Below, piece after piece: positions 4,524 to 22,148 of a DNA stretch of 64,000 nt. The stretch is from Rhizobium indicum. Lineage in GTDB: Bacteria > Pseudomonadota > Alphaproteobacteria > Rhizobiales > Rhizobiaceae. The stretch lies in NCBI RefSeq assembly GCF_005862305.2, contig NZ_CP054021.1:806001-870000 (forward strand), written 5' to 3'. How positions within the stretch are numbered: position 1 is the stretch's first letter; every line of letters starts with the position of its first letter. The notes below the pieces were generated by a model. It ran no database searches. It was not told the origin of the DNA and saw nothing but the letters and a program-made list of their open reading frames with translations. Position numbers and translations under genes: made by a program.

Positions 4524-4575
4524 TGGTGCCCCCGGCAAGGTTCGAACTCGCGACCCCCTGATTACAAATCAGGTG
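4524..4575 (-). pseudogene. Displaced 3' half of tRNA-Thr(TGT) with attL
   Basis: On the minus strand this reads as the anticodon arm (CTGATTTGTAATCAG), variable region, a T-arm with TTCGAAC, the 3' acceptor strand CGGGGGC, then ACCA. The D-arm and 5' acceptor strand are missing; integrase DNA follows directly. It is the original 3' end of the tRNA gene pushed 17.5 kb away by integration. The T-stem differs from that of the intact copy at 22073-22148, as expected if the latter's 3' half came from the element. Confidence 0.9.
4552..4575. other. attL core (24 bp)
   Basis: Identical to 22101-22124. It covers the anticodon stem-loop and variable region of tRNA-Thr, so crossover is in the anticodon arm. 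The integrase stop codon is only 13 bp away. Confidence 0.9.
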
Positions 4576-4587
4576 GTAATCCTTATA

Positions 4588-5826
4588 TCACAGCGCTTCT
4601 GCGGCTTCATGCGCCATTTGTGCGCCATCGACGAAAATGGACGTCGAAATCTGATCCATGATGTTACGGTGAGTATCGCTTGGAAACATGTGCCCATACC
4701 GGCTCATGGTGACGGCGAGTGAGGAATGACCGGCAAAGGTTTGAACCGTCTTGGGTTGCATACCAGCTTCGATCCATGTGCTGATCGCGAAGTGGCGGAG
4801 CGCATGCCAATTGAACGGTTTGAACTTCCTGCCTTCATCTGTAGCCTTCTTGGCGGCAGCGACAAGCAGCGGCCGGAACTCGCGTTTCAGGATATTCTTA
4901 TGATCGAGGAAACCGCCCTTGGCATTTGGGAAAATCAGATCTTCTGCTTCCGAGCTCTTGGCTGCTTCTTTCCATGCTCGCAACTCGGCCAACATAGCTG
5001 AGGAGAGTGGCACGCGCCGGATGCCTGCTGTTGACTTGGTGGTGTCCTCATTTTTGTAAGCGTCGACACGACCGTCGACGGTGAGCTCGCCAGCGTTGAA
5101 TGCCGCATGTTTCCAGCGAAGTGCATAGAGTTCCGAAGCGCGGACGCCGGATGAAGCCGAGAGCCGCATACGAACCCTCAAGCTTCCTGCTGCTTCGGCC
5201 AACGCTGCCGCAAGATCCGCCTTTGATGGCGGTACAACCTTCTTAGACCCCTCGCCTCGCTTGCCGGTGACGCGGATGCTTGCCGCCGGATTGATCGCCA
5301 TCAGGTCATTGCCAACAGCATTTTGGAGCGCGCGCGAGAGACTCCCAAGAATGCGCCGGGTCGTCACCACGCCGACGCCGGCCGCCCGCAACCGATCGCG
5401 GAAATCGCCAATCACCTTCGCAGACGCTTGGGAAAGCTTCACAGCACCGATTCCACCGTCGAAAATAATTCTGGTCTTCTCCGCCTGCTTTGCTCGGTGC
5501 TCGTCCGTCGGGGCAACGTAATTTCGCAACTGTCCTTCTACGGTCCTATAATAATGTTCGGTCACATGTTCGCCGCGTTCTCGCCGTGCCGCGAGTAACT
5601 TTAGGTAATCCGTCACAGCATCATCTATCGTGGTTGCGGCCGCGTCGGCTCGATACGTGCCGCTGACGACCTGATGCGTCACCTCGGTGCGGCGAGCCTC
5701 GGCATCCCGCTTCTTCTCGAATTGCTCTTTATGTCGCTTGCCGCCCGCATCGGTATAGGCCAGCACCCAAGCCTCGCGCTCGACGCCCTTGCTTGTCGTC
5801 CATTTTCGTTTGGTTATCGTTGCCAT
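4588..5826 (-). CDS. int: Tyrosine site-specific integrase
   Basis: 412 residues of the phage-integrase family, catalysing recombination between attP and the tRNA-Thr attB. Residues 1-60 look like an arm-binding domain, about 65-170 the core-binding domain, and 195-395 the catalytic domain. Catalytic residues are visible: R229 (SSGVRASEL), H341 and R344 (HALRH), H367 (AGHSS) and the nucleophile Y377 (SRYGHMF). The gene abuts attL and reads outward, the usual layout for islands in tRNA genes. The ATG at 5826 has a G-rich ribosome site in GGGGGTCATGA. It seems intact, so the island is potentially mobile. Confidence 0.95.
   Translation of the reverse strand: MATITKRKWTTSKGVEREAWVLAYTDAGGKRHKEQFEKKRDAEARRTEVTHQVVSGTYRADAAATTIDDAVTDYLKLLAARRERGEHVTEHYYRTVEGQLRNYVAPTDEHRAKQAEKTRIIFDGGIGAVKLSQASAKVIGDFRDRLRAAGVGVVTTRRILGSLSRALQNAVGNDLMAINPAASIRVTGKRGEGSKKVVPPSKADLAAALAEAAGSLRVRMRLSASSGVRASELYALRWKHAAFNAGELTVDGRVDAYKNEDTTKSTAGIRRVPLSSAMLAELRAWKEAAKSSEAEDLIFPNAKGGFLDHKNILKREFRPLLVAAAKKATDEGRKFKPFNWHALRHFAISTWIEAGMQPKTVQTFAGHSSLAVTMSRYGHMFPSDTHRNIMDQISTSIFVDGAQMAHEAAEAL
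4606..4616 (-). other. Candidate integrase arm-type site
   Basis: TTCATGCGCCA, the inverse of TGGCGCATGAA found at 5847-5857 and 22006-22016, lies 31 bp inside attL within the 3' end of int. A partial second copy (TGCGCCA) is at 4621-4627. Confidence 0.45.
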
Positions 5827-5830
5827 TCAT

Positions 5831-5914
5831 GACCCCCTGATCTGTGTGGCGCATGAAAACACGACGCAAATAGGTAATCAAGGTAAAAACCTTGACATTT
5901 TTGTATATTTACAA
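5831..5914. promoter_or_regulatory. Control region between int and the alpA-like gene
   Basis: It contains, in order: an 11-bp copy of the att core start (GACCCCCTGAT, 5831-5841); an arm-type motif TGGCGCATGAA (5847-5857); a palindrome CAAGGTAAAAACCTTG (5879-5894); a -35-like TTGACA (5892-5897) reading right; and a second palindrome TTGTATATTTACAA (5901-5914). The two palindromes overlapping a promoter look like operators for an island or helper regulator. The -10 box (near 5915-5921) is weak, as expected for an activated promoter. Confidence 0.5.
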
Positions 5915-6001
5915 CAATGTTCTGGATGTGGACAAGGCACAGTTATCCACCATCGAAATTAGCATGTTTACAAAACCTGTCAACCCCACTTGGAGGAAAA
6001 A

Positions 6002-6202
6002 TTGCAAGCTGCGAACGATAACGTCGGAGGCGACCTGCTTATGGGAGCCAAAGCCATTGCCAAGTATCTCGGAATTACCCAGCGGCAGGCCTACCGGCTC
6101 TGCAGCGACTCCATCATTCCTAACTTCCATCTCGGCGGCACGGTAGCTGCCCGTCGATCCTCCCTCACCTCTTGGATGGCAACTGCGGAGAAATCGGCAT
6201 GA
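6002..6202 (+). CDS. AlpA-like excisionase / transcriptional regulator
   Basis: A 66-residue MerR/AlpA-type winged helix protein: LMGAKAIAKYLGITQRQAYR is the helix-turn-helix, followed by IIPNFHLGGTVAARRSSLTSWM, the wing and hallmark Arg/Ser end. In Gram-negative PICIs the AlpA protein controls excision and island gene expression. TTG at 6002 is chosen because GGAGG (5992-5996) stands 5 nt upstream; an in-frame TTG at 5990 overlaps that site, and ATG at 6044 lacks one. Its stop overlaps the next start (ATGA), so it heads an operon with the two small genes and rep. Confidence 0.8.
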   Translation: MQAANDNVGGDLLMGAKAIAKYLGITQRQAYRLCSDSIIPNFHLGGTVAARRSSLTSWMATAEKSA

Positions 6203-6390
6203 AGATCACCATCAAAAGCGAAGACCATCCCAACGGCCTAGACGTCGATTGGCCGGCCGCGCCCGGCACCGGCGATTGGGTTTCATTCCACTATCTCGGC
6301 GGCACAAATCACCTTCAAGCGAAGCGGGTCGAGTACGACGTGGACGCGGATGGAAACCTGACCAAGGTCACGGTCCATCTAGAGTACTAG
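6199..6390 (+). CDS. Small island protein of unknown function (63 aa)
   Basis: It begins MKITIKSEDHPNGLDVDWPA and overlaps the alpA stop by ATGA, which argues for translational coupling. The sequence is acidic and beta-rich, with a GTGDWVSFHYLGG turn; small phage proteins with this look are often DNA- or protein-binding accessories. No family is recognised. Confidence 0.65.
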   Translation: MKITIKSEDHPNGLDVDWPAAPGTGDWVSFHYLGGTNHLQAKRVEYDVDADGNLTKVTVHLEY

Positions 6391-6408
6391 CACCCCACAA
6401 GGAAACCA

Positions 6409-21186: not shown

Positions 21187-21339
21187 GGGTTCACCGTAGG
21201 CCGGCGCGATCACCACCTGCGCCAAGATCAGCAGCGCGCCGGCCGGTTCTAATTTCGGCTCGCCCTGGCCGAACCGCGGTCAGCCGTTCTTCCGCATGAT
21301 CGGCTGATCGCTTCCAATTACCACGCCACCACACGTGCG
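21187..21339. other. Non-coding tail of the cargo operon
   Basis: GC-rich with several small inverted repeats (for example GCCGGCGCG near 21200 and GCGCGCCGGCC near 21234). No gene. Confidence 0.3.
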
Positions 21340-21368
21340 CCGTCGGCCTCACCAGCCGGCGGTTTTTC
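21340..21368 (+). terminator. Rho-independent terminator of the plus-strand cargo operon
   Basis: CCGTCGGC (21340-21347) with GCCGGCGG (21355-21362; one G-T pair), then TTTTTC. It lies between two convergent cargo units. Confidence 0.75.
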
Positions 21369-21912
21369 ATGTCAAGATGGCGTTTCGTGTGCGGAATTCG
21401 TCGGGCCGCTTCACGTAGTCGTCAGCAGTCAGCCAAAGGGTGCCAACTAACAGCGGTGTCTTAGGACCAACTCGATCGTCGTCGGTAGGATAACGGATTG
21501 GGAAGACCCTAGTCTCGGCATGCAATTCACCCAGCGCTGAGCGATATTCCTCGAATACCTCACGCGGATTGTTGATGTTCTCGGCGTCAGGAAACATGCC
21601 GCATGCAACAGCCTCTCGGTGCGTGATGTCCGCATTGCGCCCGGCGGCCAGTCTGAGTGGCTCAACGAGATCCACCGCCCACATATCATTGATTCGGTGA
21701 CCGAACGCCCTGACCTTCGATTGGCCATTGTGAATGAGGCATCCCTTCAACAGTAGTTCAAGACCGTGCCCAGCGAGGTGAAGCGCAGGGGCAAAAAGCA
21801 TATGGCTGCGCCCATCGACCATTTTGTTATCCAGGACACGGGCGGCTTCGAGGAAGCATTTCGCTCTACTAATAAACTTGCCCGCGTCGCTTTCATGGAA
21901 ATCCTCATTCAT
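21367..21912 (-). CDS. HEPN-like helical protein (putative defence cargo)
   Basis: 181 residues from ATG 21912 (MNEDFHESDAGKFISRAK). The N-terminal half (FLEAARVLDNK...LHLAGHGLELLLKGCLI) has the helical pattern of HEPN nucleases/partners, including the G-x-E-L-L-L-K-G helix. A clear R-x4-6-H catalytic motif is not seen, so it may be a non-catalytic member. The C-terminus has LVGTLWLTADDYVKRPDEF. An ATG at 21936 would add 8 residues; the inner ATG has the better ribosome site (GGGGA, 8 nt). Confidence 0.6.
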   Translation of the reverse strand: MNEDFHESDAGKFISRAKCFLEAARVLDNKMVDGRSHMLFAPALHLAGHGLELLLKGCLIHNGQSKVRAFGHRINDMWAVDLVEPLRLAAGRNADITHREAVACGMFPDAENINNPREVFEEYRSALGELHAETRVFPIRYPTDDDRVGPKTPLLVGTLWLTADDYVKRPDEFRTRNAILT

Positions 21913-22005
21913 GCTCGTCCCCATACCATGCGCCATTCATGTTCCACGGAATCCCCGCTACTCTAAGGAAAAGCCCGGAAAACATGGTAATTCTGGTTAA
22001 ATCAG

Positions 22006-22016
22006 TGGCGCATGAA
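22006..22016 (+). other. Candidate integrase arm-type site near attR
   Basis: TGGCGCATGAA, exact match to 5847-5857. A 9-bp version on the other strand is at 21927-21935. Confidence 0.45.
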
Positions 22017-22040
22017 AAACCCGCATCAAAGGGCGGGCTC
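22013..22040 (-). terminator. Terminator downstream of tRNA-Thr
   Basis: On the minus strand CCCGC (22033-22037 complement) pairs with GCGGG (22020-22024 complement), then TTTTTCAT. It lies inside the island, so the element brings its own terminator for the tRNA it interrupts. Confidence 0.6.
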
Positions 22041-22072
22041 TTCTTTAAGTCATTGACTTTGCAGTGAAATTT

Positions 22073-22148
22073 TGGTGCCCCCGCCAGGGTTCGAACCCGG
22101 GACCCCCTGATTACAAATCAGGTGCTCTACCAACTGAGCTACAAGGGC
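22073..22148 (-). tRNA. tRNA-Thr (anticodon TGT), reconstituted at attR
   Basis: Full cloverleaf: acceptor GCCCTTG with CGGGGGC (two G-T pairs), D-arm GCTCAGTTGGTAGAGC, anticodon loop TTTGTAA giving TGT, T-loop TTCGAAC, CCA encoded. The 5' part is chromosomal; from the anticodon arm to the 3' end it is supplied by the element. Confidence 0.97.
22101..22124. other. attR core (24 bp)
   Basis: Exact copy of 4552-4575 within the anticodon arm of the intact tRNA-Thr gene. Confidence 0.9.

Follow-up and report, generated by a model that had tools for sequence, protein, structure and literature searches.

A tRNA-integrated island of Rhizobium indicum with its own head and packaging genes: a probable phage satellite from a family with graded tails

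A 64,000-nucleotide stretch of the Rhizobium indicum chromosome (NZ_CP054021.1, positions 806,001 to 870,000; referred to as the window, with positions counted from its first letter) carries an intact, tRNA-integrated island of 17,549 bp that encodes HK97-type head and packaging proteins. The island is probably an intact phage satellite, which would form a small HK97-type head of its own, package its own 17.5-kb DNA and take tail and lysis functions from a helper siphophage. The larger finding is a uniform family of such elements with graded tails. This family is tentatively put forward as an independent alphaproteobacterial lineage of capsid-forming satellites of about 17.8 kb, in which most members may make head, neck, tail tube and tape measure and depend on a helper for no more than tail tip and lysis, several members near the window may combine a head with a receptor-binding fibre whose siphophage-like anchor could re-aim borrowed tails, and the window would contribute the head alone.

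Boundaries and integration site

The island ends in an exact 24-bp repeat, 4552-4575 and 22101-22124, detected by a repeat search of the window; the length of 17,549 bp is counted from repeat start to repeat start. A preliminary description, made from the sequence of the window, had placed a candidate capsid-forming satellite at 4552..22124, and these are the outer ends of the repeat. The two attachment (att) sites are as follows:

about 4526-4575, minus strand: displaced 3' half of the chromosomal tRNA-Thr, holding the left att core 4552-4575 (read from the sequence; exact 24-bp repeat)
22073-22148, minus strand: intact tRNA-Thr(tgt), its 3' half supplied by the island, with the right att core 22101-22124 (tRNA call and repeat)

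The empty site is seen in sister genomes. At five of eleven loci (L214-L218) the left flank (to 4575) adjoins the right flank (from 22073), and the two overlap solely in the shared tRNA half. At four loci (L220, L222-L224) the right flank ends at the tRNA half and the similarity of the left flank is too low; the remaining two (L219, L221) differ from the empty-site pattern. The att repeats and the adjacent flanks in sister loci therefore define a 17,549-bp element inserted in the tRNA.

Head and packaging genes

The head and packaging set is complete up to the adaptor Ad1 and is not interrupted. Its open reading frames (ORFs) are:

10480..10920, plus strand: leader ORF of the late operon, 146 aa, with a MerR-like helix-turn-helix (HTH) by eye, possibly a late regulator (no Pfam or PHROG match; 14-row alignment)
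10901..12106, plus strand: portal protein (PF04860, 2e-75)
12096..12632, plus strand: S78 prohead protease (PF04586, 5e-36)
12629..13750, plus strand: HK97-fold major capsid protein, MCP (PF05065, 1.5e-78)
13819..14199, plus strand: Bbp16-like capsid cement candidate, 126 aa (phrog_5707, 1e-30; Pfam Bbp16, 0.005, below cut-off)
14352..14699, plus strand: HNH endonuclease (phrog_2323, 1e-15)
14864..15265, plus strand: head-tail adaptor Ad1 (PF05135, 1e-15; phrog_40, 1e-25)
15269..15676, plus strand: terminase small subunit, TerS (PF05119, 6e-23)
15639..17267, plus strand: terminase large subunit, TerL (PF20441, 2e-44; PF03354, 2e-18; phrog_9, 2e-139)

Intact overlaps, which the preliminary description had also pointed out, are present at six ORF junctions of the island (10901/10920, 12096/12106, 12629/12632, 15639/15676, 18854/18855 and 19255/19276). 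The integrase, AlpA-like HTH protein, helicase and head and packaging set described there are all named by Pfam and PHROGs, the AlpA match being weak. The 126-aa protein is probably the capsid cement protein, a reading based on the weak Bbp16 match and on a structure predicted with AlphaFold2 from 26 sequences (mean confidence, pLDDT, 83). The best match of this model in the PDB, which is not a strong one, is 3j4u_H of a Bordetella phage head (E 4.5e-3, TM score 0.53, 25% identity). A search ahead of the head operon gave no evidence of sigma-70 promoter or terminator signals (10 and 21 sites, respectively, versus 7.5 and 20.4 in shuffled sequences).

Tail, lysis and repressor families were not matched by any of the 23 island ORFs treated as genes in Pfam, PHROGs and PADLOC (not every ORF in every library), and a phmmer search with a set of 50 siphophage proteins (neck, tail and lysis; four phages) found no match in the window. 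As a control for the tail-tip search, the LM21 gp48-type hub scores 793 bits in the conventional prophage G117. These searches agree with the preliminary description, which had recognised no such gene in the island; the tail shaft, tail tip and lysis genes of a functional siphophage prophage are not found in the window. A full phage hidden among the small ORFs was rejected for the window on the basis of the family searches and of folding of the 126-aa protein, the sole unknown structural ORF with enough relatives to fold.

A family of uniform length and gene order

The same head and packaging core, which the preliminary description had proposed to look for in related rhizobial genomes, is present in other genomes too. 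TerL was searched in 297 genomes of the bacterial family, of which 82 match at E <= 1e-30 and 43, the window's own included, at E <= 1e-119. At E <= 1e-120, again with the own genome, it is found in 12 of 148 genomes of the genus, 26 of 397 of the order and 6 of 385 of the class, these samples overlapping. Sixty neighbourhoods were retrieved: in 53 of them TerL is at least 41% identical, and the seven in which it is 32-36% identical served as conventional controls. Where contig ends permit, portal, protease and capsid come ahead of HNH, adaptor and TerS, with TerL last, in nearly all members of the set of 53; phmmer misses single genes in some of them, and no portal was seen in G260. TerL precedes the portal gene in all seven controls.

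Of 54 family neighbourhoods, counting that of the window, 37 yielded an accepted pair of att repeats; in the remaining 17, contig ends cut the element or no pair was convincing. The pair lies in a tRNA gene in 34 of the 37. The att-bounded elements have a mean length of 17,795 bp (standard deviation 733, range 16,549-19,834), and the 33 tRNA pairs excluding the longest element, G328, which has an insertion in TerL, give 17,774 bp (standard deviation 667). The narrow band is not imposed by the method, because pairs were sought between 9 and 30 kb. The window's 17,549 bp is at the family mean although a fibre segment is missing from it (see below). The constant length argues against random prophage decay, as an argument and not as a test. 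IMG/VR holds 11 contigs with TerL 73-100% identical, ten of them 15.5-19.0 kb long and one 56.8 kb; the contig with 100% identity is probably the window's own genome.

Two variants were observed on the side. In G328 (C1:3403106-3406475, L191) about 1.75 kb with a 415-aa ORF, transposase-like by eye, splits TerL, and likewise in IMG/VR L146. G161 has two nearly identical family members on contigs C49 and C54, the latter beside tRNA-Arg. The gene order of C49 (12.7 kb), cargo-integrase-AlpA-portal, would fit an excised circle, but the two contig ends share no overlap and the order is no more than suggestive.

Graded tails across the family

Tail genes behind TerL are common in the family, and the tail-less state of the window is not the family rule. 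A tape-measure profile was built from eight ORFs, all eight of those tested being named tape measure by PHROGs; a profile built by position alone was contaminated by fibres and was discarded, so that the counts use the PHROG-confirmed one. Tape measures are present in 33 of the 37 att-bounded elements, and absent by profile from the window, G337, G377 and G328. Neck proteins were matched in 30 elements and tube or chaperone proteins also in 30, and a tail-tip match was obtained in one, G318, weakly (45 bits). The 33 tape-measure elements have 148 post-TerL proteins of at least 110 aa, of which 134 were searched. A minor tail family was matched by two of these, and the 25 families listed of the 82 matched do not include a hub, fibre, holin or endolysin. 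The preliminary description had named full-siphophage relatives with tail genes at the TerL end as evidence that would speak against a satellite. Tail genes do occur at that end, as tape measures in 33 of 37 elements and as fibres in several of the closest relatives, but full siphophages were not seen: the 37 elements are 16.5-19.8 kb long, with that single weak tip match.

Several close relatives have a fibre. The post-TerL ORF matches PHROG tail-fibre families in G337, G377 and the IMG/VR contigs V138 and V141, contains an Mtd_N domain in G328, and in V144 combines a weakly matching fibre N-terminus with a NAGPA domain. Eight relatives have TerL 86-94% identical to that of the window (V138, V147, G337, V139, G328, G139, G377 and V141), and a fibre was found by search in five of them (V138, G337, G328, G377 and V141). 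V139 has a tape measure that matches that of phiLM21 at 477 bits, and in G139 neither fibre nor tape measure was found by search. The 402-aa post-TerL ORF of V147, the nearest relative by TerL, is fibre-like by eye; it has no PHROG, Pfam or convincing PDB-sequence match and was not counted.

Comparison with V138 (84-86% nucleotide identity) locates the difference at 17268..17597, where V138 holds a 3.5-kb segment with a 614-aa tail fibre (phrog_38233, 1e-65); similarity between the two ends at 17236 and restarts at 17598. Parsimony suggests that the window lost the fibre segment. Directly behind the tape measure of G318, a fragment with a stop (G318:C1:1593203-1593361) is 60% identical over 55 residues to phiLM21 gp48 and is possibly the trace of a lost tail tip.

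An observation apart concerns the G377 element, in which a 653-aa minus-strand ORF behind the fibre (L143:14086-16047) is acyltransferase-like by eye, as in phage surface conversion.

The candidate helper

The V143/G377 fibre is 62.4% identical over residues 1-184 to a phiLM21 fibre and 63.2% over residues 13-184 to one of phage 16-3, and 13 of the 22 phage records that it matches are from Rhizobium, Sinorhizobium or Bradyrhizobium. The middle part of the G337 fibre matches Klebsiella and Escherichia phage tail proteins. Likeness of the temperate rhizobial phages phiLM21 and 16-3 to the family lies in this fibre N-terminus and, for phiLM21, in the V139 tape measure; both differ in being full siphophages, in which TerS-TerL precede the portal gene and the tail tip is complete. 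No phage head gene close to those of the window was found, the best phage matches being 35% for MCP and 35% for TerL.

The window's genome has one other HK97-type capsid gene. It lies in a siphoprophage at C1:4.185-4.204 Mb, where genes for TerL, portal, protease, adaptor and neck accompany a tape measure of the LM21 type (276 bits) and a hub (434 bits). This prophage is a plausible candidate for a helper on site. The idea that Ad1 was borrowed from a rhizobial helper was rejected: its 242 phage matches come mainly from phages of Enterococcus, Streptococcus, Pseudomonas and Moraxella, the best at 38%. The 20 of these matches listed include no rhizobial phage, and Ad1 gives no pointer to the helper.

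Proposed mechanism and alternative explanations

The sequence shows that the island is intact, where it ends, which genes it carries, to which family it belongs and that the length of that family is constant; head formation, self-packaging, helper use and transfer are inferred. A resident or infecting helper would trigger excision mediated by AlpA and the integrase, and the helicase would drive replication of the island. Portal, protease, capsid and cement proteins would build a head whose size would fix the unit length near 17-18 kb, into which HNH, TerS and TerL would package island DNA. Ad1 would close the portal and offer a docking face to the neck and tail parts of the helper; because no head-closure gene was found, docking would have to use helper parts. 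The helper would then lyse the cell. The island would represent a tail-less branch of the family, most members of which bring tape-measure, neck and tube or chaperone genes but no tip, and several close relatives a fibre instead.

A number of observations weigh against this scheme. The AlpA-like HTH scores 25.7 bits with HTH_17, against a curated Pfam cut-off of 27. A head-closure (Hc1) gene was not found with Pfam, PHROGs or phmmer with four closure and adaptor proteins. PF10145 and LM21 gp48 have no match in the window's genome, so the resident prophage is not of the exact LM21 type. The att pairs of G318, G615 and G104 lie outside tRNA genes, and five of the tRNA pairs are just 17 bp long. 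V138, G337, G377, V141 and G328 hold a fibre where the window has none, so that the island in the window could stem from a recent deletion and be non-functional by now. The broken fragment in G318 is as expected if the family originated by loss of phage genes.

Alternatively, the island may be a remnant: a family member (or prophage) whose tail part was lost recently and which is now stuck and kept for its cargo (Mrr-like nuclease, Abi_alpha-like protein and DUF3010-kinase). This is considered unlikely. The fibre retained by the closest relatives, the resemblance of the cargo to phage defence and the broken hub fragment in G318 favour it, but the head ORFs and att sites are all intact, the island length equals the family mean, and G139_C7, on another branch and also without fibre and tape measure by these searches, keeps the head set. 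Pairwise ratios of nonsynonymous to synonymous substitution (dN/dS) between the window and V138 are also low, 0.02-0.12 for portal, protease, MCP, cement, HNH, Ad1, TerS and TerL, although several dS values are near or above 1 and the ratio averages both lineages and cannot date a recent loss. A complete miniature phage, with a tail that has diverged beyond recognition and with no need of a helper, is an improbable reading. Most relatives do have tape-measure, neck and tube or chaperone genes, small unknown ORFs are present, and a 596-aa protein of V145 matches the tail family phrog_4271. However, apart from the kinase, no ORF of the window between TerL and att has the size and strand that a tape measure or spike would need. 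Of the late-operon ORFs, the two without a clear assignment are the cement-like and HTH-like proteins, no lysis gene was found in the searches above, and the 134 post-TerL proteins of the relatives gave two minor-tail matches, with no tip or lysis family among the 25 of 82 listed. A domesticated cluster resembling a gene transfer agent and packaging host DNA would explain the HK97-type head genes and the annotation of some relatives' genes as gene transfer agent family protein. It is very improbable: gene transfer agent clusters are kept vertically, whereas this is a mobile island that combines exact att repeats and empty sites with an integrase and has a scattered distribution over species (12 of the 148 genus genomes at E <= 1e-120, own included).

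Comparison with known satellites

The preliminary description had proposed a capsid-forming phage-inducible chromosomal island (cf-PICI). Own heads with a borrowed tail remain the best working idea, but membership in the cf-PICIs is not supported. Likeness to cf-PICIs, as far as they are described in the part of the source available (PMC10803314), consists of an integrase at one end, together with an AlpA-like gene that is weakly matched here, a replication gene, which here is of helicase type with no primase domain matched, a P27-type TerS, TerL in last place and no tail. The window has its own MCP, prohead protease and portal, HNH and both terminase subunits, and an adaptor, as cf-PICIs do; tail genes are absent from it as from them, but present in most of its relatives. 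Gene order and content were compared with one element of 16 kb, Klebsiella NZ_CP069874, whose cf-PICI-like status is our own reading; published cf-PICI capsids number roughly 900 (PMC13230959). The order in the window is portal-protease-MCP-cement-HNH-adaptor-TerS-TerL; that in the Klebsiella element is MCP-protease-portal-closure-adaptor-HNH-TerS-TerL. The head order is reversed, cement is present and no closure gene was found, the family length is about 17.8 kb versus a published cf-PICI length of about 14 kb (PMC10803314, same excerpt), the portal clade is separate, and, unlike cf-PICIs, the relatives carry a tape measure or fibre.

In the portal tree (72 rows) the 60 family rows, including the window and four alphaproteobacterial plasmids, form one clade (98/99) that excludes the Klebsiella element, phages and the resident prophage. 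The TerL tree (73 rows) places the window in a clade of 14 rows (100/100), some of them with a tape measure, some with a fibre and some with neither; the Klebsiella element lies outside this clade, subject to a long-branch warning. We think that the island works like a capsid-forming satellite; it is not filed as a cf-PICI because closure, gene order and phylogeny all differ from that element.

The Vibrio satellite-plasmids termed cf-PISP are similar in being capsid-forming, tail-less and 15.8 kb long, but in the available excerpt of their description they are episomal, without a typical integrase and reported from Vibrio only (PMC13230959), whereas the window element is integrated. Four circular alphaproteobacterial plasmids of 16-23 kb with the family portal and TerL, L112 (NZ_CP157016), L113 (NC_010721), L114 (NZ_CP088250) and L115 (CP099479), may by analogy be satellite-plasmids of this kind; three of the four have a tape measure by at least one profile. 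The Streptomyces satellites MulchRoom and MiniFlayer have their own capsid and packaging genes, and one gained tail-fibre-like parts; they are set apart here by their description, the excerpt of which gives them virulent helpers and terminal repeats and says that they lack homology to cf-PICIs (PMC10690885). The nearest published statement found concerns further putative satellites that, in the excerpt seen, have genes for capsid, tape measure and baseplate and lack terminase (PMC10448857). The literature searched (one library) yielded neither a capsid-forming satellite from rhizobia or other alphaproteobacteria nor one that has a tape measure without a tip. A tip-stealing or fibre-supplying strategy would be new with respect to that literature.

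Significance

If this reading is correct, head-building satellites would be normal in rhizobial and other alphaproteobacterial genomes, having evolved apart from the enterobacterial ones, and the family would move defence-like cargo among soil and symbiotic bacteria. Since its members differ in how much of the tail they keep, the family offers a natural gradation in which to ask what virion parts satellites can obtain from a helper and whether a satellite fibre can redirect a borrowed tail to another target. Such elements would count as incomplete in prophage surveys. A survey of Hyphomicrobiales reports, in its available part, that 1160 of the 1860 prophages are incomplete (493 + 667) and that short prophages form peaks, which lie at 5 and 15 kb in animal-associated genera (PMC11080155). 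Our guess is that some of these incomplete prophages belong to the window's family.

Early genes, cargo and other features

The early side of the island contains the following features:

4588..5826, minus strand: tyrosine integrase, 412 aa (PF00589, 3.5e-20; phrog_1, 5e-50)
5990..6202, plus strand: AlpA-like HTH protein, 70 aa (HTH_17, 1.4e-5; phrog_66, excisionase and transcriptional regulator, 3.1e-5)
6172..6390, plus strand: small early ORF of 72 aa (unmatched in Pfam and PHROGs; similar ORF in G318)
6409..6669, plus strand: small early ORF, 86 aa, retained in the close clade (phmmer cluster, 13 neighbourhoods)
6644..8272, plus strand: AAA_25 helicase-type replication protein, 542 aa (PF13481, 3e-33; phrog_906, DNA polymerase/primase, 9e-34)
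9754..10202: non-coding block that holds two direct repeats, of 31 nt and 40 nt, in three copies each (repeat search)

No primase domain was matched in the helicase-type protein with Pfam or PHROGs; AAA_25 is related to primase/polymerase families. The repeat block is possibly a replication or regulatory region. Elsewhere in the family, a recurrent gene behind the tape measure (L203:14466-15347; 13 neighbourhoods) is similar to rolling-circle replication proteins (REP_ORF2-G2P, 1.9e-5, slightly under the cut-off), which suggests that replication modules vary within the family too.

The cargo consists of one gene on the early side and a region that starts behind TerL with a 90-aa ORF:

8443..9585, minus strand: Mrr-like nuclease, 380 aa (Mrr_cat, 0.0012, below cut-off; PADLOC PDC-M58A, 5e-4)
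17578-17772, minus strand: DUF2158 (PF09926, 1e-12; kept in V138)
17866-18855, minus strand: Abi_alpha-like protein (PF14337, 0.0011, below cut-off; kept in V138)
18854..20346, plus strand: DUF3010 protein overlapping a Ser/Thr kinase (PF11215, 2e-25; PF00069, 6e-29; the kinase matches PADLOC mad6 and PD-T4-6)
20819..21936: two small plus-strand ORFs (54 and 68 aa) and a 189-aa minus-strand ORF (no Pfam match; one weak PHROG match, 0.0024)

Judged by these matches, the Mrr-like nuclease is likely to be defence cargo, and the DUF3010 protein and kinase are possibly a phage-defence pair. Elsewhere in the window, the small RNA EcpR1 (Atu_C6) is found at 57540-57649 on the minus strand (105.7 bits).

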